DNA from: Gonapodya prolifera JEL478
Taxonomy: Eukaryota; Monoblepharomycota; Monoblepharidomycetes; Monoblepharidales; Gonapodyaceae
Direction: 5' to 3'
Length of the DNA: 64,000 nt
NCBI GenBank assembly: GCA_001574975.1
Contig: KQ965818.1
Location: 68,258-132,257, forward strand
The translations under genes were made by a program, and so were the position numbers. The notes below the pieces were generated by a model, which saw nothing but the letters and a program-made list of their open reading frames with translations, was not told the DNA's origin and searched no databases. Shown here one piece after another: positions 1 through 56,760 of the stretch. Positions within the stretch are counted from its first letter, which is position 1, and each line of letters opens with the position of its first letter.

Positions 1-147
1 CGCATTGCAAAACAACCTTTGATCTGCCGGTAAATTCACGAATGTTCATATTGGACCAAGTACGACCACTGGCATCTTTCTTGACGTGAATGATTCTGAA
101 GATGTCTGCATCCGCTTTTTTATCTCCCAGGATATGTTGGCACAAAC

Positions 148-35783: not shown

Positions 35784-37560
35784 TATGTTGCCAAACCTGA
35801 ATACTGCATCGGACTCACTGAGAACCTTGGGAGCACCGGCCACGTCCCTTTGACAAGCTCCAGAGTATACCTGCGCACGATGGTACTGACCGCCATCTTG
35901 ATGATGGCGGTGGCATATTTTGTTCCAATACACTTGTCGTGGTCGTAGATCAGAATCAATTTATCGGTGAATTACTGCTCGAGGGAGAGCATGAAAACCA
36001 AACCGAAATGCAGCACTACTCACCGGATGCGACCCCACTCCCCAAACAGCAAAGTTGTAATTAGAATGCGCGCCTCCCTCAAGAAGGCCGACCTTCTTGG
36101 GACCCGCGGTGTCAGAATCCATTCCTCCCGTGAATGGCACCGTCCGATCAGGATCAAAGCGCCAAATGTCTTCATGGAGACGCTCATTAAGGTTGAGCGT
36201 CGTATGTGGGAACATGCAAAAAGAACCGGCGGGGATGGTGTATTGGTCAATCTTGAAGTCGTCGTCTGACATTCTGGTGACGTGGGAGGTGATATTCTCA
36301 TTTCGAATAACGTTGGTGACAGTCAACACTATGGACGCGCACCTGAACGACACAAAATCTTTTCCGGACAGTCTGAGATTCTCGGCAATAACTCTATCCA
36401 GCAGCTCCATTTTACTGAGATCGCCCATTGTCGGGGTAACGGTGACCAAATGCCCTTCACGCCCGCCGAGCACAGTCTTTTGCTCGTCAAGGACACGTTG
36501 TGCCAGGACTGGATCAGCTGCCAGTCGTAGAATAACCCACGCCATGTTTGCTTGTGTGTTGACCTGCAACGATATTAGGTGTTGGTACAGTGGGAGAAGA
36601 ACTACCGTGACTTGATAAAGGAAGACGTAACTCACCTGAGCTGCCAATAGCAGTCCCCAAAAGTTAACCATAACGTCGTAATAGTTGATTTGGCCGTTGT
36701 CGTCCTTTGCTGACTCAGCAGCGCTGAGCAAAAGGTCAGTTGCCGGAGTGTTACTTCCCACGCCCGAAAGCTTGCCGATACGTTCATCCACAATCAACTT
36801 GAAAATGTCCGCCCAGTTGCAATAACGCTCTTGCATCTCTTTTACGAGGCGATTTTTATCATACCACATTCTGGGACTTTGCATGGCTTGTTCAATATCC
36901 ACAAGGTGGAACGTGTCCTTGAGTGCACGGAAATATGGGGACGACTCGTCAAGTCCAACAAATTGTTCCAAGCCGAGGTTCATAGTGAGATCCCACGTCT
37001 CTGCGAACAGGTCAGGCACAACTACCGCCGTGTGCATGTTGATATAAAGTTGGGTATGCTTGTCAATATAACAAGCGGGTGAGCTCACATCCATTCTCCC
37101 ATTGCGGCGTGGAAAGCATCTTTAAGATCGCCCGCTCCACCTCGCGCGTGAACGTGGGTGACGAGAGCGGCTTCCGGCCAGCCTCTGCAGAGAATTTGCC
37201 AAACGTCTTGCCGTCAGACGCTCCCTCACTAATCCTCGACGGATAAAATCCCCCAAGAACAACAGCTTGGCCCTTGTTTTTATCGAGGGCTCTCGAAGAG
37301 TGGTAGGCGCGGGTTGTCTCTGGACCCATCACGAGGTACGCCTTGCCGATGAAAGGAACCTCCAGGACACCGCAGATCCCATATGCGCTGAGGAGTCGAT
37401 TCCAAACGGCGTTGGGCTCGAATATGACGAGAAAAATCCAGTAGAGAAAGGAGATTCGAGGAGGTTCAGCAGCGCTCGTGTTTGCTGAAACGTATCGATG
37501 TGAAAGGAGAGGTAGGGAGACCGCCAGAATGAGAGCCAAGACAGCTATGGCGTACATCAT
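35784..37560 (-). CDS. Cytochrome P450 monooxygenase
   Basis: This is a haem-thiolate monooxygenase anchored to the ER. Exon 1 from ATG 37560 begins MMYAIAVLALILAVSLPLLSH, a membrane anchor. A Pro-containing hinge and the SAAEPPRISFLYWIFLVIFEP block follow, then FIGKAYLVMGPE. Later exons carry the I-helix-like FWGLLLAAQVNTQANMAW, ExxR as ENLR in the K helix, FDPDR in the PERF region, and the haem loop FAVWGVGSHPCIGTKYA with the Cys ligand, split by an intron (donor after HP, acceptor before TGT). The C terminus is RRYTLELVKGTWPVLPRFSV, with stop at 35784. The I-helix and haem loop resemble CYP7/CYP8/CYP51-like sequences more than typical fungal CYP52/53, but class is uncertain. About 5 exons. 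A relic copy lies 370 bp upstream. Confidence 0.85.
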
Positions 37561-50450: not shown

Positions 50451-53400
50451 TCAGGTTTGTATGACGGTTGAAAGAGAGCGTAAGAGGACTTTGTGGGCTT
50501 CACCAATTGGATTCTCTGTGTAGAACCACACATAGAGAAAGGTACAACTAATGTGTACATGCAAGTAGCACCATTACTCACCTTCGAGATTGATTAGTGT
50601 TAAAGTGGCGTTACTGATCATGACATCAGCAAGCGCACTTGCGCCGACATCACAAATTTTGTTCTCTGACGTGTGGAATATTAAGATGTCAGCTAAAAGC
50701 CATATGCGTCCCAGCATGGCACTATAACAAACGTTTTAGGTCAAGGATAATCAGCGATGAATTTATTTTCAAGGCGTCAGAAAAGGCAGTTGCACCTTCA
50801 TCACCAATTTGGTTAGCTCATATTGGAAGCAATGATTGTGTCGATCACTCAAGATAAAGGCGCACAAAAATACAATAGGGTGCCACTCACAATAAAGCTC
50901 AAGTTTGGTTAGTGTGGAGTTCTTCTTCAAAGCATTAGCAATGGCAGATGCACCATCATTATCGATTAAGTTCACTAGAAGAGGGAACCAAAATGTTTAA
51001 CGATGCGCAAATTCGCAAGTAAAAATATGCGGTACGCGTCTGCCGCCACTCACATTGCAGGTTAAGTGACGTCAGCGCTCCATTCTTCTCGAGGGCAGCA
51101 GCAAAAACAGATGCACAGTCGCCACTGAATTTATTGTCTGGTGCCAGCCATGAACGGCATAAAAATATGCCCATCATGTGAGCAAGATTGTTTGAACCAA
51201 CCCAGAGGGCAGAGATTTAGTAGAGAGAACAACTCACTTCGTAGATTCAACGTCGTCAGCGTCGAATTGCTTTTAAGGGCATTTGCGAGGGCCCTTATAC
51301 CATCAGCACCAATTTTGTTGTCTGACGTCAGTCGTCAGGTTCCATCACACACATAAATTGATTGACAGAATGAGCAAGAAAAAGATTCACACCGTATCAT
51401 AACTCATGACACGCAACCCCACCTCTTAAGTCAAGCACAATCAATGCAGAGTTGTTGCCCAGGAGATCAGCAACTGACCGGGCGCCATCAGTGCCAATGC
51501 TATTTGCTACCGGTGACAGGTACAAGAAAGTGTTTAGCAAACATTCCCATCAAGACATCCCCACTCACATCGAAGGTTGAGCGAAGTCAGCGTAGAGTTA
51601 CTTTTCAGTGCATCCGCAAGGGCCTTTGCTTCATCAGCACCGATGTTATTGTCTTGCGCCAGGAAACAAGCATCAAAAGGTCACACCATGCATGTGCAGA
51701 AGAATTCAGCCAAATAATAAGTATGTGTAAAAAAATCTCCCTCTCACATCGAAGGTTCAGCGACCTGAGTGAAGAGTTGCGCCTTAGCGCAGAAGCAAGG
51801 ACCTTAGCACTGTCACCTCCGATTTTGTTATCTAGACATGCCAAGAACCAACACCAACATACATTTGGAGAGCAAGTGAGCCAAGTAGCCACATCAAAAC
51901 AAAACACTTGCACTTGCCTCTGAGATCAAGCGTCGTTAATGCAGAGTTCATCCTTAGGGCATACGCAACTGCACTTGCACCCTTGGTGCTGAGGTTAGTG
52001 GCTGAAGAAACAACCATGCTTTAAGCAAAATTTCTGATCCAAAAGATTAACTCCGACTTACATTCGAGACTGAGTGACGTTATCACCGAGTTAGTCTTTA
52101 AGGCATCAGCAAGGGCCCTCGCACCGTTGTCACCAATTTTGTTATCTGAAATGAGCCGATAGAAACCAGATTAACCCATTTATATTCGGACCAAGTTAGT
52201 CAAACATACTACACGTCTTGCGCCATATACTCCCACTCACGTGCTAGGTCAAGCAACTGTAGCGTGGAATTGTTCTTGATGGCATCAGAAACGGCAGATA
52301 CACCAACATCACCGATTTGATTCGCTGGTTTTAAAAAGGCAGACAAACCGCCACATGGAATCATTAGATCAGTGACGGACTCCTTGGCCAAGCTTCGGCT
52401 TACATCTGATATCAAGCGATAACACCCTAGAGTTCCCCTTTAGGGCCTTTGCTAGGGCCCTCGCACCGTCATCACCAAGAGCACACCCTTGTGACATTGT
52501 GGTAAAAGAGTGCCGTTATAATTAAACAGGATCAGTAAAGGTTATATGCAACTTTTGTTCAAAAAAATTAGGTTGCACTTACTGCGCAGCACAATTTTTT
52601 TCATACCAGTACCTGCTTGAATCACACCCCAAGCTGCGTCAGCCGGCAAAAATCTTCTCGACATCGTTACCTCTTTTGTATCACTTCCGTTCCACAAGTG
52701 CTGAAACTGCACACGGAGATCATCAGGCATTTGCCCCAGATTAAAAATTCCGAGTTGTTCAAGGGTTTTAAGCCTCTCGGGAACGTATGAGGGATTCTTC
52801 CCCGCACTGTTAGACAATCCTCGCCCATGATCCTCATTCTTGTCTACACCAATGCCATGGAAGTAGCAGTAGCCAAGATGCTCACGTCCGACTGGATGTC
52901 CTTGGTTGCTGGCTCTTGTGTACCATTCCACGGCAAATTTGCTAGCATCACCGCTGGGGAGATCTTTTCCGACAACACCATGGTAGTGAAGGTCCCCAAG
53001 ATTGACCATTGCCCCCGCATGCCCTTGCTTGATCGCATGTTCATACCACAGTTTAGCCCCGTGAAAATCCTTCTGCGACTCATGCACAATCCCCAAATTG
53101 AATTGTGCATCGGGATTGCCTCTTTGCGCTACATCAGTGAGGTAGAATACTGCCTGTTCAGTGCTCTTCTCCACACCAAGTCCCAGCAAGTAACATTCTG
53201 CTAGGAGAACCTTGGCGGCATAAAAGCTTCCATCTTCGGCAGCCTTCTTAAACCACAAAACGGCCTCTTCGTAATTCCACCTGACCCCATATCGATGCAT
53301 GAGCGTAAATCCAAGCCTCGCCTGAGCAGCCACATGACCCTTCTCTCCGGCTCGACGATAGTAGCCAATAGCGCGCTCAAAATCCTTGCTGCAGAGTCCA

Positions 53401-55284
53401 ACTCCGTGGGAGTAAAAGTCACCCAGAGCACATAGAGCTGCTGCATGGTCCCGTTCGCCAGCTTTTGCATACCATTTCGTTGCAAGATCCATGTCCCGAT
53501 GGTGGAGACCTAGTCCAATGCGACACCACTCTCCGACCTCATACTGAGCCTCAAGGTGGTTCAATTCCGCAGCGTGCTTGTACAATTGCAGTGCCTGAGT
53601 GTAGTGTCCGTCAATGCGAGCTGACTGCGCTTGTTGAAAAACAGCGTCCATATCGGTAGCAACATTGTTCACACAAAAGTCGAGGATGTCTACATTAGAG
53701 GGCATGGGTCGGAGTTTGGGTAGCTCTGGCCTAAAAGATAGAACGCGATTCAAACAGAATATGGGAACGCGATCTTCACCGGTTCATTTGACTCACTGCA
53801 TTTTCTCAAACTGTTCAACTATTTCTCGGAAGGTTGGTCGGGCACCGTCATCATGAGCCCAACACTGAACCATCATCTCCGAAAGCGCTTTTGGCATAGT
53901 TTCTGGTACTTTTGGTCGGTTTCCTGCTAGAATTCCCTTCATGGTAGCTACAAGAGTGTCTCCATCAACCTCGCCGAAGGGGGAGTCATCCTGCGACCAC
54001 AACTTCATGACCATGCCATCAAAGATGAATTCTGAGAGCGCAAAAGTGATTCGATTCTACATACCACCCATATCATGATTCCGAATGCATAGACATCTCC
54101 TGCCCTTGTGATCAAGCTAGGCGCGTCTTCCACACCAATTTTGCGACCAAGCCTCTCTGGGGGAAGGTAAAATAAAGTCCCCGGAAGAACAGCTGAATAG
54201 TTTCCGCCAGTGAGTGCTGCAAATCCGAAATCAGCCACAACACCACGACCGTTGAGGGTAACAAGGACGTTGTCTGGTTTCAGATCGGTATGGATGACGC
54301 AGGCGACTTCGTGCAGGTACATGACTCCACGGGCAATGTCGTAGAGCTGTAAAGAGTATACCAATATTACGTGAATTGAATCTCAGAATAACCTCGATCT
54401 GTTTTCGGGGTGCACTCACAAGACAAATGCACTCCGTGTAGTATTCGTCCATTCTATCAGCGAGTTCATTTGCTCTGTGCTTCAGATAGTCGACCATGCT
54501 TCCATTTGCCATCACAGGGCAAACAAAGAATGGTTGCCTGTTAACATCGAATCCAACGCCGTAGAGGGGGAGCACAAATGGGGAGGTCATTGTGGACCAC
54601 ACACGAGCCTCTCGGTCAAAGTCCTTTGGTTTTGATAGCGTGTAAGTAAAAGATCATACCTCAAAAAAGAGAAGAGGATTATACCATTTTTGAATACCCC
54701 TTCTCCGCTCCATCGTTTTCGTTTCCCGAGGTAAGAAATGTCCGAGTGTTGTATCCATGCCGATTTCCCATTTTAGCGTCTACAAAGACCGTTTGAGTGG
54801 AGTTCCGCCGCGTCCTTCGAAAACGCGATGGTGTTTTCGCGGACAGCGAAGTGCTTTGTTCCGAGACCAAGGTTTCAGACAAATCTGCCGGTGGAGGAAC
54901 GTGCAAGTGAGCCTCGGAAGCAGCTTGGGCATCACTGTCGCGGAGTTGCAAGTTCGCCTCGTCCAGTGCGACTTTTTTCAGGGCCACTTCGATTCCGCGC
55001 CATGAGCCTCGATGCACCGCACTGTATCCCCCGCCACCGAGTTTTTCATTCGTCCAGCGCACGTCGACGTTGTCCACTTCCCAAAACTCTGGAAGTCGCG
55101 CGCTTTGCAATCTTGCCATCGATCGCAATTGACAGTCAAACAGACTGCGGCCGATTGTGGGGTTATCTGATCCAGCCGAACAAATCTCCGCGGGACATCG
55201 CGAAGGAAAACAGAGATTAAAATACGGAATGCGTACGCATGTGTTGCTAATTCTGAGAGTAAATGTGGGTTGCAGACTCGACAT
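50451..55284 (-). CDS. Protein kinase - Sel1 repeat - RI-type LRR fusion protein
   Basis: One minus-strand gene of more than 20 exons, about 1,200 residues. The kinase (about 54,970-53,800) has the Gly loop LGGGGYSAVHRG, IEVALKKV (ATP Lys), a long polar insert of about 95 residues before DFDREARVW, the catalytic VIHTDLKPDNVLV (HTD instead of HRD), VADFGFAAL (DFG), YLPPERL and ARPTFREIVEQFEKM, a TKL-like ending. One large exon (about 53,740-52,585) encodes Sel1/TPR-like repeats (AQYEVGEWCRIGLGL, AALCALGDFYSHGVGL, AQFNLGIVHES, MVNLGDLHYHGV). IVLRR splices in phase to CALGDDGARALAKALKGNS, the first of 12 LRRs, each one exon. The tail ENPIGEAHKVLLRSLSTVIQT stops at 50451. No TM or signal is seen. 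ATG 55284 is used; 55119 (MARLQSARL) is an alternative start. Likely an intracellular sensing or scaffold kinase. Confidence 0.85.
50580..52500 (-). repeat. Twelve one-exon ribonuclease-inhibitor-type LRRs
   Basis: Each exon encodes one 28-29-residue repeat of the form DNKIGxDGAxALAxALKxNSxLTxLNLR and is flanked by introns of about 65-105 bp with the same phase. Approximate centres: 52440, 52285, 52105, 51955, 51790, 51610, 51465, 51280, 51095, 50935, 50780 and 50625. Same phase and size mean whole repeats can be gained or lost without frameshift. Confidence 0.85.
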
Positions 55285-56169
55285 TGCAGTCGATGGAGTC
55301 GGGCCAAGGGAAGAAAGGAGGTCCTATCCCGTGGACTAGAGCACAGACTACAGAACGACAGGACGGTAAAGGCAGAGGAGCCTTCTCGCGAGTGCAGCAT
55401 CATACATTATCTGGCTTTGTATAAGGACCACCCTTTTGTAAATTTATCGTGTTTATTCAATTGAATGTTGTCGTGAAACAATAAACGGTGACAGGACACC
55501 CAGTCCCCTACGCATCCGACCAACTTCCCGTAGACGTAGAGAACGTTGCACTTGCGAAGAAGTGTGCGAGTGGAGAAGAGCTGATGGGCTTTGAACCGCA
55601 CGGTGCGGATTTGTTGAGCCTAACGTCGGGACATCTCGTAGATTCATACTACAAATGATATGCACGTCACACGCGATCAATTTGCACATTATGAAGCATG
55701 CCGAAAAGTAGAGGTCACAATGCCCACCTCAAACACGAGACGGAAATGCCTTGGTGATCTGCAAAGACCCTCAGAACCGCGCAGACACGATGTCGCATGT
55801 CATCAGGGCCAGCATCTCGCAGCTTTTGAGCAGCGCCAGTTCTTAAACGCCCACATCACCAAGAAAACTTCGCTTGATGGCACATTGAAGTGAAACTCAC
55901 GTGACGTCGTTATTCCTGGGTAACACATACAAACTTCGTGAGTCGCCCGGCAAAGAACGACGCTCGAAACACCAAACAACCCACCAACCTTGGCCGCCTC
56001 TTGCATCCCCTCGTCCGCAAATATATCTTCTCCGTCAGCCACTTTTCCCTCTGCTTCGTGAACCCGGATGTGGGAGGCCTCATTTCATCCACGTCAGTCG
56101 CGTCCGACGAAACAGGCATGTGCACGCCCTGCATCTGACGCTTTTTGCCCGCCGTGGCCTCTGCCAGTG
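55285..56169. other. Gap without a recognisable gene
   Basis: Upstream of the kinase start; must contain its promoter. Overlapping open frames (55407-55689, 55803-56042) have no motif or splice partner. Confidence 0.45.
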
Positions 56170-56760
56170 TCAGTGTAACAGTCGGTTGGGAGATGAAATC
56201 TCTCCGGCGAGTTGGTGATGAGCGAGGGTCAGATACAGCAACTGCGCGAGAGGAGAGAGCGAAGGTATCCCTAGTTGCCCGCGAGGAACAGTTGGCGCAG
56301 TTGCGTGAGAGAGAAGAGCGAGGGAATCTGTCCATGACTTTGTTAAAATCCAAGTGCAGGACCTGCAGCTGCGTGAGAGAGGAGAGCAAGGGATCGAGTC
56401 CTGTCACTTAGTTGTACGGAGAAACATGTGTCAACCACCTGCGTCAGGGCCGACCGGTCTGGAATGAAGCCTGAAAGAGCCGACGACTTGAGGTTGACTG
56501 CACCGACGACTCATCCTCCACTGCGGCTGAAACTGAGATGGGTATCCGCAAATCCCTGCGACAATGCACAGCAGTTGCCCTGGTCCACGGCAATGCCAAG
56601 TTGGACTGGCTGTAGAGTTGCTCGATGGGCCACGGTCTGCGCGTGTGCTGGATTGGGCGGGCAGAGAACGGGGGACGGTGCAGCGATGGCGATCAGCTGG
56701 AGTCGCACAGGCGAGGTCTCCATTTGCGTCGCGTTCTCGCGGGATGCCGTCGCTGGGGTG
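56170..56760 (-). pseudogene. Plant-like LRR protein pseudogene
   Basis: Reading the minus strand gives a hydrophobic leader, then VQLGIAVDQGNCCALSQGF, an N-terminal LRR cap with GNCC. In the same frame come a TGA, VNLKSSALSGFIPDRSALTQV, and after an intron-like gap LTQLQVLHLDFNKVMDRFP. The consensus IPSLxxLTQLxxLxLxxN then recurs in three different frames (LTQLRQLFLAGN, IPSLSPLAQLLYLTLAHHQLAGEI). The order matches receptor-like LRR proteins with 24-residue repeats, but the stop and successive frame changes make it non-functional. Confidence 0.65.

Follow-up and report, generated by a model that had tools for sequence, protein, structure and literature searches.

A single minus-strand gene of Gonapodya prolifera JEL478 joins a protein kinase, a Sel1 solenoid and an array of ribonuclease inhibitor (RI)-type leucine-rich repeats (LRRs), and it is a member of a gene family, not a lone fusion. 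The gene lies in a 64,000-nt stretch of contig KQ965818.1 (the window). We lean towards reading the family as an intracellular LRR receptor-kinase repertoire, the sensor end of which diversifies and the signalling end of which is conserved, and as a candidate for nonself or pathogen recognition.

From nucleotide 55284 to 50451, 18 exons splice into an unbroken frame of 1166 aa, in agreement with the one continuous gene of the initial annotation. The 17 introns are short (60–101 nt each), with GT-AG borders in 16 and GC-AG borders in one (51917–51832). As had also been proposed, the kinase exons are spliced in phase to the Sel1 exon and 12 RI-type LRRs follow: exons 6–17 are 12 successive 84-nt exons, all of phase 1-1 and each encoding one 28-aa repeat, and exon 18 is a half-repeat that closes the array. 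The 5′ end first given to the gene (55284) is probably wrong. Seven of the 13 paralog models (L001, L003–L008), and the L010 model as well, open with a methionine located 9–10 residues ahead of a PEFWEV motif; the window-gene methionine at the corresponding distance is ATG 55119, where the automatic gene model starts too. The L009 and L013 models start farther upstream, and the remaining models are without the PEFWEV part. As paralog models start at the position matching 55119, this ATG was preferred over 55284 as the probable translation start, which gives a protein of 1111 aa. The features are as follows:

55120–55284, minus strand: in-frame 55-codon stretch upstream, probably 5′ leader (paralog starts correspond to 55119)
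54685–55119, minus strand: exon 1 (from ATG 55119), starting MARLQSARLPEFWEVD; glycine-rich loop GGGGYSAV, VALKK lysine and most of the beta3-alphaC insert of about 100 aa
54420–54623, minus strand: exon 2, kinase alphaC region (DFDREARVW) (splicing, Pfam, kinase motifs)
54065–54346, minus strand: exon 3, catalytic loop HTDLKPDN (non-RD), DFG and PPE (splicing, Pfam, kinase motifs)
53797–53990, minus strand: exon 4, end of the kinase C-lobe (splicing, Pfam)
52583–53730, minus strand: exon 5, Sel1 solenoid, linker and first LRR beta strand (MKKIVLR) (splicing, Pfam)
52488–52582, minus strand: Sel1-LRR intron, 95 nt, split codon A/GG (phase 1) inside the first LRR (splicing, as for all features below)
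52404–52487, minus strand: LRR exon 1 of 12, 84 nt, phase 1-1
52241–52324, minus strand: LRR exon 2, 84 nt
52062–52145, minus strand: LRR exon 3, 84 nt
51918–52001, minus strand: LRR exon 4, 84 nt, followed by the GC-AG intron
51748–51831, minus strand: LRR exon 5, 84 nt
51569–51652, minus strand: LRR exon 6, 84 nt
51423–51506, minus strand: LRR exon 7, 84 nt
51238–51321, minus strand: LRR exon 8, 84 nt
51054–51137, minus strand: LRR exon 9, 84 nt
50891–50974, minus strand: LRR exon 10, 84 nt
50733–50816, minus strand: LRR exon 11, 84 nt, donor GTTTGT
50582–50665, minus strand: LRR exon 12, 84 nt
50451–50515, minus strand: exon 18, C-terminal half-repeat cap and stop

No stop precedes the donor of the Sel1 exon, and the exon runs into an LRR beta strand, which is finished by exon 6; as the Sel1 exon ends within the first LRR, we conclude that there is one gene. 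That a kinase-Sel1 gene and a separate LRR gene merely appear fused is very improbable. The gap between both parts is the 95-nt intron, the junction is in phase with the A+GG codon originally annotated, and five of the 13 paralog models (L001, L003, L004, L006 and L015) show the same phase-1 hand-over from Sel1 into LRR, a different phase-1 junction being given by the same comparison for the other eight. Frame, phase and the junctions in paralogs thus led us to reject the two-gene or annotation-artefact reading. A promoter and terminator scan of nucleotides 52400–53900 was set aside, as it was built for bacterial signals. A scan for splice-flanked LRR exons returned 12 in the window; when the window was shuffled three times in 6-mer blocks, it returned 0 each time.

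The domain search called for in the initial annotation, run with Pfam, bears out the three-part fusion, with PK_Tyr_Ser-Thr at 4e-30, Sel1 at 6e-36 and, in the C-terminal part, LRR_6 at 3e-49. The Sel1 match (PF08238) scores 122 bits against a Pfam cut-off of 30.7. An AlphaFold2 single-sequence model of the Sel1 exon alone adds little: it shows paired helices with a mean pLDDT of 67.3 and falls below 50 at residues 340–382. The LRR part is made of 28-aa units and matches ribonuclease inhibitor 1dfj in the PDB at 6e-30. Its PDB relatives include 5irm at 7e-31, which is listed as 'Uncharacterized protein' and which we take to be a NOD2 structure; none of the best-scoring matches is an immune receptor, these being a 'Ribonuclease inhibitor-like protein', LRRC34, radial spoke and dynein regulatory proteins, and others.

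The kinase retains the lysine, the catalytic aspartate and DFG, and its HTD catalytic loop makes it a non-RD kinase. PK_Tyr_Ser-Thr outscores Pkinase in the Pfam scan, and the nearest PDB chains are mixed (EGFR, ABL, MLT/ZAK, TAK1, MLK4, CTR1 and RIPK3). We take EGFR and ABL to be TK members and MLT, CTR1, RIPK3 and TAK1 to be TKL members, MLT/ZAK, TAK1 and MLK4 being of MAP3K type; the kinase may be TKL-like, with PDB neighbors that span TK and TKL. With respect to localization, no TM-like segment was found in the protein (no 19-residue Kyte-Doolittle mean exceeds 1.45), and the conserved N-terminus, judged by eye, is not signal-like. Both observations fit the intracellular layout previously suggested.

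Thirty-one stretches around matches listed in searches of the same genome were fetched. The order kinase, Sel1, LRR on a single strand occurs in 12 of these 31 loci, so that the architecture noted at the outset is real but not that of a lone fusion; as only those stretches were fetched, family counts are lower bounds. In L002, Sel1 followed by LRR is seen, with gaps upstream. For the L001 and L016 models, Pfam detects the three domains. With intron 1 counted, VALK and DFDREA lie 236–397 nt apart in 18 loci; L020 and L027, of the HLD class, have 91 nt between them. None of the 29 catalytic loops found across the family loci is HRD: 26 have a residue other than arginine before the aspartate (16 HTD, 5 HAD, 3 HLD, one YTD and one QTD), and the catalytic aspartate is missing in three (L024, L030 and L031b). 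In a kinase tree with weak deep support, L016 and the kinase-LRR loci fall outside the HTD group. A scan for bacterial relatives of the Sel1 or kinase part gave just two distant Sel1 relatives (36 and 22%) and a viral scan gave none, and transfer of either part from bacteria or viruses was not retained. Both scans are weak tests, as they rely on short exact patterns. A model of a fungal lysine-pathway enzyme matches contig C8 piecewise, with no single piece above the cut-off.

The LRR arrays expand through tandem exon duplication within the gene. For 10 of the 12 window LRR exons the nearest neighbor lies inside their own array, and over all loci this holds for a fraction of 0.488 of 168 exons, versus a label-shuffle mean of 0.042. 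From this count L002 was left out, as it is a near-duplicate of L004 (96.7% nt identity), and exons scoring ≤25 were removed before both this and the array divergence analyses. LRR exons are not shared between sister genes with alignable kinases. Within the window array, nucleotide identity is 0.57 and mean amino acid identity 0.47; the latter is highest in L001 and L020 (0.75), and in L001 individual exon pairs are identical (nucleotide maximum 1.00).

In three of five young arrays (L001, L016 and L020), divergence at the presumed ligand-face codons exceeds that of introns or silent sites. In minimum-spanning-tree counts, contact pN is 0.223 in L001 versus 0.091 for introns (p 7e-5) and 0.558 in L016 versus 0.112 (p 2e-10). 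L020 comprises three units and has neither an intron comparison nor a significance test; its contact pN is 0.517 versus 0.080 at silent sites. In L027, contact codons change more than introns (63 sites) but do not surpass silent sites (p 0.18), and in L028 there is no excess (0.366 versus 0.351 for introns). Pairwise divergence in L001 is 0.085 for introns (10), 0.376 for ligand-face codons and 0.540 for the split codon (12 exons). Codon 1 of its repeats (Asn) is invariant; it is flanked by the highly variable split codon on one side and by codon 2 on the other, and it adjoins the near-constant intron. As silent changes in L001 are also higher at contact codons (0.262 versus 0.090), part of the signal may come from older units having been shuffled. 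Pairwise contact divergence in two older arrays is below that of introns (L006, 0.313 versus 0.486; L008, 0.417 versus 0.582). Nine of 28 arrays were analyzed by codon-set ranking and five by tree-edge counts; the distant first unit of L016 was left out of both, the L001 cap exon was also left out, and exons poorly similar to their own array were excluded from the pairwise comparison of introns and contacts. Since the contact codons were chosen with the entropy profile already in view, the p values lean toward the diversification reading. That of the window array (0.0034) ranks the contact set among the array's own codons only, the array being too old for a comparison with neutrality. Positional entropy alone was not taken as evidence, as such positions vary in any LRR; only the comparison with introns and silent sites was used. 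Tree-edge counts replaced a pairwise NG86 table, which is near saturation and has non-independent pairs; in it, contact dN/dS exceeds 1 in many arrays and is 0.58 in L001, 0.44 in L028 and 0.92 in the window array.

The other end of the protein behaves differently. Against the window gene, dN/dS is 0.17 (L001) and 0.10 (L007) for the kinase and 0.19 (L001), 0.15 (L004) and 0.15 (L003) for Sel1; these ratios, given where computable, come with a high pS (0.56–0.71). At 0.10–0.19, they show purifying selection on both domains. The truncated copy L011 gives 0.82 for the kinase and 0.43 for Sel1.

Taking into account that Sel1 and RI-type LRRs often act as scaffolds, it might be that both assemble a fixed signalling complex, for instance a MAPK-type module, and that LRR differences mark sub-functionalized duplicates, not nonself recognition. 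The MAP3K types among the nearest solved kinases, besides EGFR, ABL, CTR1 and RIPK3, would suit such a scaffold kinase, as would an old window array with repeats that differ throughout and the lack of a contact excess over introns in L006, L008 and L028. We nevertheless regard it as rather unlikely, as contact codons in L001, L016 and L020 outpace introns or silent sites and no LRR exons are common to sister genes with alignable kinases, the window exons mostly having their neighbors in their own array.

Less probable still is that tandem exon duplication, gene conversion and decay simply turn the family over with little selection, many copies dying. Stops within tblastn segments at several paralogs, the LRR-only or kinase-only fragments L017, L018 and L026 and the truncated copy L011 with its kinase dN/dS of 0.82 are what such turnover would leave, and the three arrays without excess over introns agree with it. 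However, the window gene is intact across 18 exons, the low dN/dS of kinase and Sel1 speaks against it, and neutral conversion does not readily give the invariant asparagine codon of L001 between variable codons and beside a near-constant intron.

Animal NLRs of the NOD/NLRC type have C-terminal LRRs and a cytoplasmic layout. They share the LRR gene anatomy of the window gene: according to the published description, most NOD and NLRC genes encode their 28-aa RI-type LRRs singly on frame-preserving exons, the border of which has a fixed position in the beta sheet (PMC6642158). Although the window gene has C-terminal superstructure-forming repeats as NLRs do, NACHT or NB-ARC are absent from its Pfam scan (kinase, Sel1/TPR, LRR and weak others only), a kinase and Sel1 standing in their place, and membership of the NLRs (STAND) is ruled out by the lack of a NOD domain in that scan. 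The exon patterns are likened here without implying a common origin. In fungal HNWD/NLR receptors, repeats of one gene evolve in concert, with diversification of the binding face (PMC4986451); the present family resembles them in the former respect and, in some young arrays, perhaps in the latter. Those receptors combine WD, ANK or TPR repeats with a NOD domain, that survey finding no LRR in fungal NLRs, whereas LRRs are combined here with a kinase; HNWD repeats exceed 85% amino acid identity in the survey, compared with a mean of at most 0.75 in our arrays. Binding-face excess is found in L001, L016 and L020, partially in L027, and neither in L028 nor in L006 and L008, where values lie level with or below introns. 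Two NB-ARC genes of the same genome (L034 and L035) have repeats that look TPR-like by eye, and an LRR unit is absent from both.

Plant and oomycete LRR receptor kinases and non-RD immune kinases also couple an LRR sensor to a kinase. In the receptor kinases, the LRRs are extracellular and followed by a single TM helix and an intracellular kinase, whereas in the window protein no TM-like segment was found and the LRRs are C-terminal to the kinase, presumably intracellular, with Sel1 in between. Within the fungi, Soanes and Talbot (2010) described LRR-kinase proteins without a transmembrane helix in chytrids and ascomycetes, with four genes in B. dendrobatidis (PMC2939053). As here, LRR and kinase are in one fungal chain; the parts of the description considered here do not mention Sel1, and the ascomycete group is intronless. 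Glomeromycotina, including irregularis, have kinase-like homologs with Sel1 repeats, filed as MLKL-like (PMC8778642, PMC8647823), which share kinase and Sel1 with the window gene; no LRR is mentioned in the relevant passages. MLKL is a pseudokinase, but the window kinase keeps its lysine, catalytic aspartate and DFG. Open-access literature searches listed no description of a kinase-Sel1-LRR family. The best reading is that the family works in a manner resembling an NLR or HNWD-type receptor and belongs to neither, having no NOD domain and no TM segment found.

On the receptor reading that we favor, the window protein would be a cytoplasmic receptor kinase. Its C-terminal horseshoe of about 12–13 RI-type LRRs would be the sensor, binding a protein ligand or a perturbed partner on the concave beta face, in line with the recognition of a partner first proposed for the LRRs. 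The Sel1 superhelix may serve as a rigid connector or assembly platform and the N-terminal TKL-like non-RD kinase as the output, switched through ligand-driven clustering or release, not by activation-loop phosphorylation. In the family, tandem duplication of frame-neutral 84-nt exon-plus-intron units would rebuild the LRR end while the kinase end is conserved, and some young arrays would additionally be diversified at ligand-face codons. Varying ligands, as in nonself or pathogen recognition, would be expected to leave this pattern.

LRR pattern-recognition receptors were reported to be lacking, or almost so, in fungi (PMC2939053), and fungal NLRs to be devoid of LRRs (PMC4986451). Against this background, the exon-modular, diversifying sensor of the kinase-Sel1-LRR family would make nonself recognition outside the well-studied fungi directly testable, and one genome suffices to read repeat-by-repeat exon duplication and ligand-face selection in it. 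Only tentatively do we entertain that nonself recognition inside the cells of this fungus is LRR-based and diversified in the germline, its non-RD kinases bearing arrays with one LRR per exon that expand, contract and are perhaps alternatively spliced. If true, this system would be to a kingdom reported to lack LRR receptors what NLRs are elsewhere, and its LRR genes would be built like those of animal NOD/NLRC genes. In the window gene, skipping or adding any internal LRR exon leaves the frame intact.

Splicing of 18 exons on the minus strand, from 55284 to 50451, gives one open frame, which upholds the single continuous gene proposed in the initial annotation. The 17 introns are short (60–101 nt each), 16 being of the GT-AG type and one GC-AG; introns 1–3 are in phase 0, intron 4 in phase 2 and introns 5–17 in phase 1. 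The spliced frame comprises:

Exons 1–4, minus strand: kinase
Exon 5, minus strand: Sel1 repeats
Exons 6–17, minus strand: LRRs, one per exon
Exon 18, minus strand: half-repeat

The domain search that had been called for matched PK_Tyr_Ser-Thr (4e-30), Sel1 (6e-36) and LRR_6 (3e-49) in the spliced protein, and the 12 LRRs originally counted are those of exons 6–17, the half-repeat coming in addition. The last residues of the Sel1 exon, MKKIVLR, supply the first LRR with its beta strand, and the rest of this repeat is in exon 6; the Sel1–LRR join therefore lies inside a repeat and, intron 5 being in phase 1, is in phase as claimed. The kinase-Sel1-LRR structure of the gene is confirmed. The same phase-1 hand-over into the LRR is seen in 5 of 13 paralog models (those of the numbered loci L001, L003, L004, L006 and L015 of the same genome), the script output for the remaining eight being another phase-1 junction.

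The gene start had been placed at 55284, and this has to be revised. A Met located 9–10 residues ahead of the PEFWEV motif is the start in 7 of the 13 paralog models (L001, L003–L008) and in the L010 model; ATG 55119 corresponds to it, and the model predicted automatically for the window gene also begins there. The L009 and L013 models start farther upstream than its equivalent. We take ATG 55119 as the putative start, which would give a protein of 1111 aa, 55120–55284 being probably a leader. The protein is most likely cytoplasmic, because no stretch of 19 residues has a hydropathy mean above 1.45 and no signal-like start is apparent by eye.

The window kinase retains the VALKK Lys, the catalytic Asp and DFG. 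HRD is absent from all 29 catalytic loops found: 16 read HTD, five HAD, three HLD and one each YTD and QTD, while the other three lack the Asp. The beta3-alphaC stretch of the window gene is about 100 aa long; with intron 1 included, 18 loci have 236–397 nt here, and both L020 and L027 have 91 nt. The best PDB chains for the kinase were EGFR, MLT, a SRC-ABL ancestor, CTR1, ABL and RIPK3. For the LRR part they were 'Ribonuclease inhibitor-like protein', MOP84A and LRRC34, followed at lower rank by ribonuclease inhibitor, radial spoke and dynein regulatory proteins, and NLRP proteins. On this ranking, sequence alone assigns the LRRs to the RI class in its broad sense, in keeping with the ribonuclease-inhibitor type first assigned, and not specifically to the immune receptors.

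A search of the genome (47.6 Mb, 207 contigs) revealed many relatives of the window gene. We fetched 31 stretches around them; as these represent only part of the places listed, the family counts are lower bounds. Kinase, Sel1 and LRR matches follow one another in that order on one strand in 12 of the 31 stretches (L001, L003–L009, L012, L014–L016), and all three are found by Pfam in the L001 and L016 models. The genome holds a family of kinase-Sel1-LRR relatives. L002 shows Sel1 and LRR matches with gaps, and L030 a single LRR exon among Sel1 matches. Kinase followed by LRR, without a Sel1 match, occurs in five loci (L021, L024, L028 and the 5′ parts of L022 and L027); this two-part layout is simpler than the three-part one, and in the L021 model Pfam confirms both parts. 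Kinase-Sel1 without LRR within the fetched stretch is found, for example, in L010, L013 and L031. Several loci, including L012, L014, L015, L029 and L030, contain stops within tblastn segments, some of them due to introns. Literature searches in an open-access library, which covers a minority of subscription journals, listed no publication whose title or abstract deals with a kinase-Sel1-LRR protein.

L016 (5152–8043) carries a second type of kinase-Sel1-LRR gene: its kinase has HAD and falls outside the HTD group, and its Sel1–LRR linker differs. This type raises the possibility of more than one origin of the fusion. In L023 (1432–4222), about 200 aa of N-terminal sequence precede an LRR exon array, and LRR_6 is the one family that Pfam lists for the model. 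In L001, a second, convergent LRR exon array (71–1127, minus-strand numbering) is located 3′ of the kinase-Sel1-LRR gene, close to where the 14-kb contig ends.

Reading LRR exons in phase 1-1, we found 177 splice-flanked 84-nt exons above the score cut-off, in 28 arrays of the fetched loci and the window. A scan without fixed length, with 182 exon starts recognised via their first 18 residues, placed the best donor at exactly 84 nt for 167 of them. Addition or skipping of such exons leaves the frame unshifted. Hoss et al. (PMC6642158) report that in most human NOD and NLRC genes each exon likewise encodes a single LRR of 28 aa and the exon border falls at a fixed place in the beta sheet, NLRP genes having two LRRs per 171-bp exon; the likeness to the NOD/NLRC genes is one of anatomy.

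The nearest neighbour lies within the same array for 48.8% of 168 exons (L002 excluded), versus a mean of 4.2% and a maximum of 11.9% with shuffled labels; for the window gene this holds for 10 of 12 LRR exons, although its sister L001 is 82% identical to it over 67 residues of the catalytic segment and 94% identical in the segment of the glycine loop. In L001, units repeat at about 170 nt spacing with almost constant introns. Arrays such as L003, L007, L009, L014, L024 and L025 have no within-array nearest neighbours, in some cases because a near-copy array exists elsewhere (L015 for L003, L026 for L007). Compared with the window gene, and with pS high, dN/dS was 0.17 (L001) and 0.10 (L007) for the kinase and 0.19 (L001), 0.15 (L004) and 0.15 (L003) for Sel1; saturation affected three further comparisons of kinase or Sel1. 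For L011, a truncated copy, the values were 0.82 and 0.43. The exons are modular, and conservation of kinase and Sel1 contrasts with that of the LRR arrays.

Unit positions 28, 27, 23 and 2 are the most variable, followed by 17, 5 and 25. In RI-type LRRs, positions 23, 25, 27, 28 and 2 are those residues of LxxLxLxxNx that are exposed on the concave side, the presumed ligand face. In the older arrays the gap between contact codons and introns is smaller (L003) or contact codons fall below introns (L006, L008).

Mean nucleotide divergence in contact codons (2, 23, 25, 27), split codon 28 and introns
L001: 0.376, 0.540, 0.085
L016: 0.467, 0.733, 0.188
L027: 0.489, 0.644, 0.238
L028: 0.474, 0.607, 0.325
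L003 (older): 0.563, 0.524, 0.435
L006 (older): 0.313, 0.476, 0.486
L008 (older): 0.417, 0.778, 0.582

Ranked against all 98,280 five-codon sets in nine arrays, the contact set gave p values that, like those of the tree counts below, are optimistic, because it was picked with the entropy profile in view: 0.0014 (L001), 0.0002 (L016), 0.00005 (L020, three units), 0.0012 (L027), 0.0010 (L028), 0.0006 (L003), 0.0013 (L021), 0.011 (L006) and, for the highly diverged window array ranked among its own codons, 0.0034. When changes were counted along minimum spanning trees of the five young arrays (L001, L016, L020, L027, L028), contact pN was above introns in three arrays (L001, L016, L027) and above silent sites in L001, L016 and L020 (the last without a test or an intron comparison); it did not exceed silent sites in L027 (p 0.18), nor either class in L028. 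In L001, codon 1, the structural Asn, is invariant and stands between codon 2 and the split codon, the latter highly variable; this speaks for selection acting on residues rather than for a recombination edge effect.

The genome gave five NB-ARC matches and one NACHT match. The NB-ARC genes in L034 (contig C165) and L035 (contig C152), three of the five matches, have repeats that look TPR-like by eye, and they lack an LRR unit; in the stretches read, LRRs are therefore on kinases and not on NLRs. Contig C152 has three NB-ARC matches within about 11 kb. L034 also contains an ORF with a zinc-ribbon end, presumably resembling TnpB/Fanzor proteins. The TPR-like repeats and the lack of LRRs agree with what PMC4986451 reports for fungal NLRs. 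Soanes and Talbot (PMC2939053) report that LRR receptors are nearly absent across 49 fungal genomes; they describe four genes combining LRR and kinase in B. dendrobatidis and five related, intronless ones in ascomycetes. Kinase-like homologs bearing Sel1 are known in Glomeromycotina (PMC8778642), and R. irregularis has expanded kinase and Sel1-like families (PMC8647823).

By analogy, a sensor function of the window gene is likely, and nonself recognition by the family plausible.

L011 (contig C29), the truncated copy, comprises the kinase and part of Sel1, with 91.7% nucleotide identity to the window gene. The stretch directly upstream of the gene (55224–56269 and 56281–56499) is also present at L011, at 90–92% and in opposite orientation, which suggests a dispersed repeat or a rearrangement upstream of the gene; copy and upstream stretch together span 1147–5872 of L011 and 53231–56499 of the window. 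Plant-type-LRR-like fragments (LTQLQVLHLDFN, LLYLTLAHHQLAGEI), interrupted by stops and shifts of frame, are visible by eye upstream of the gene on the minus strand at 55910–56407 and are possibly a decayed LRR gene. A minus-strand ORF at 35964–37121 matches cytochrome P450 (4e-14).
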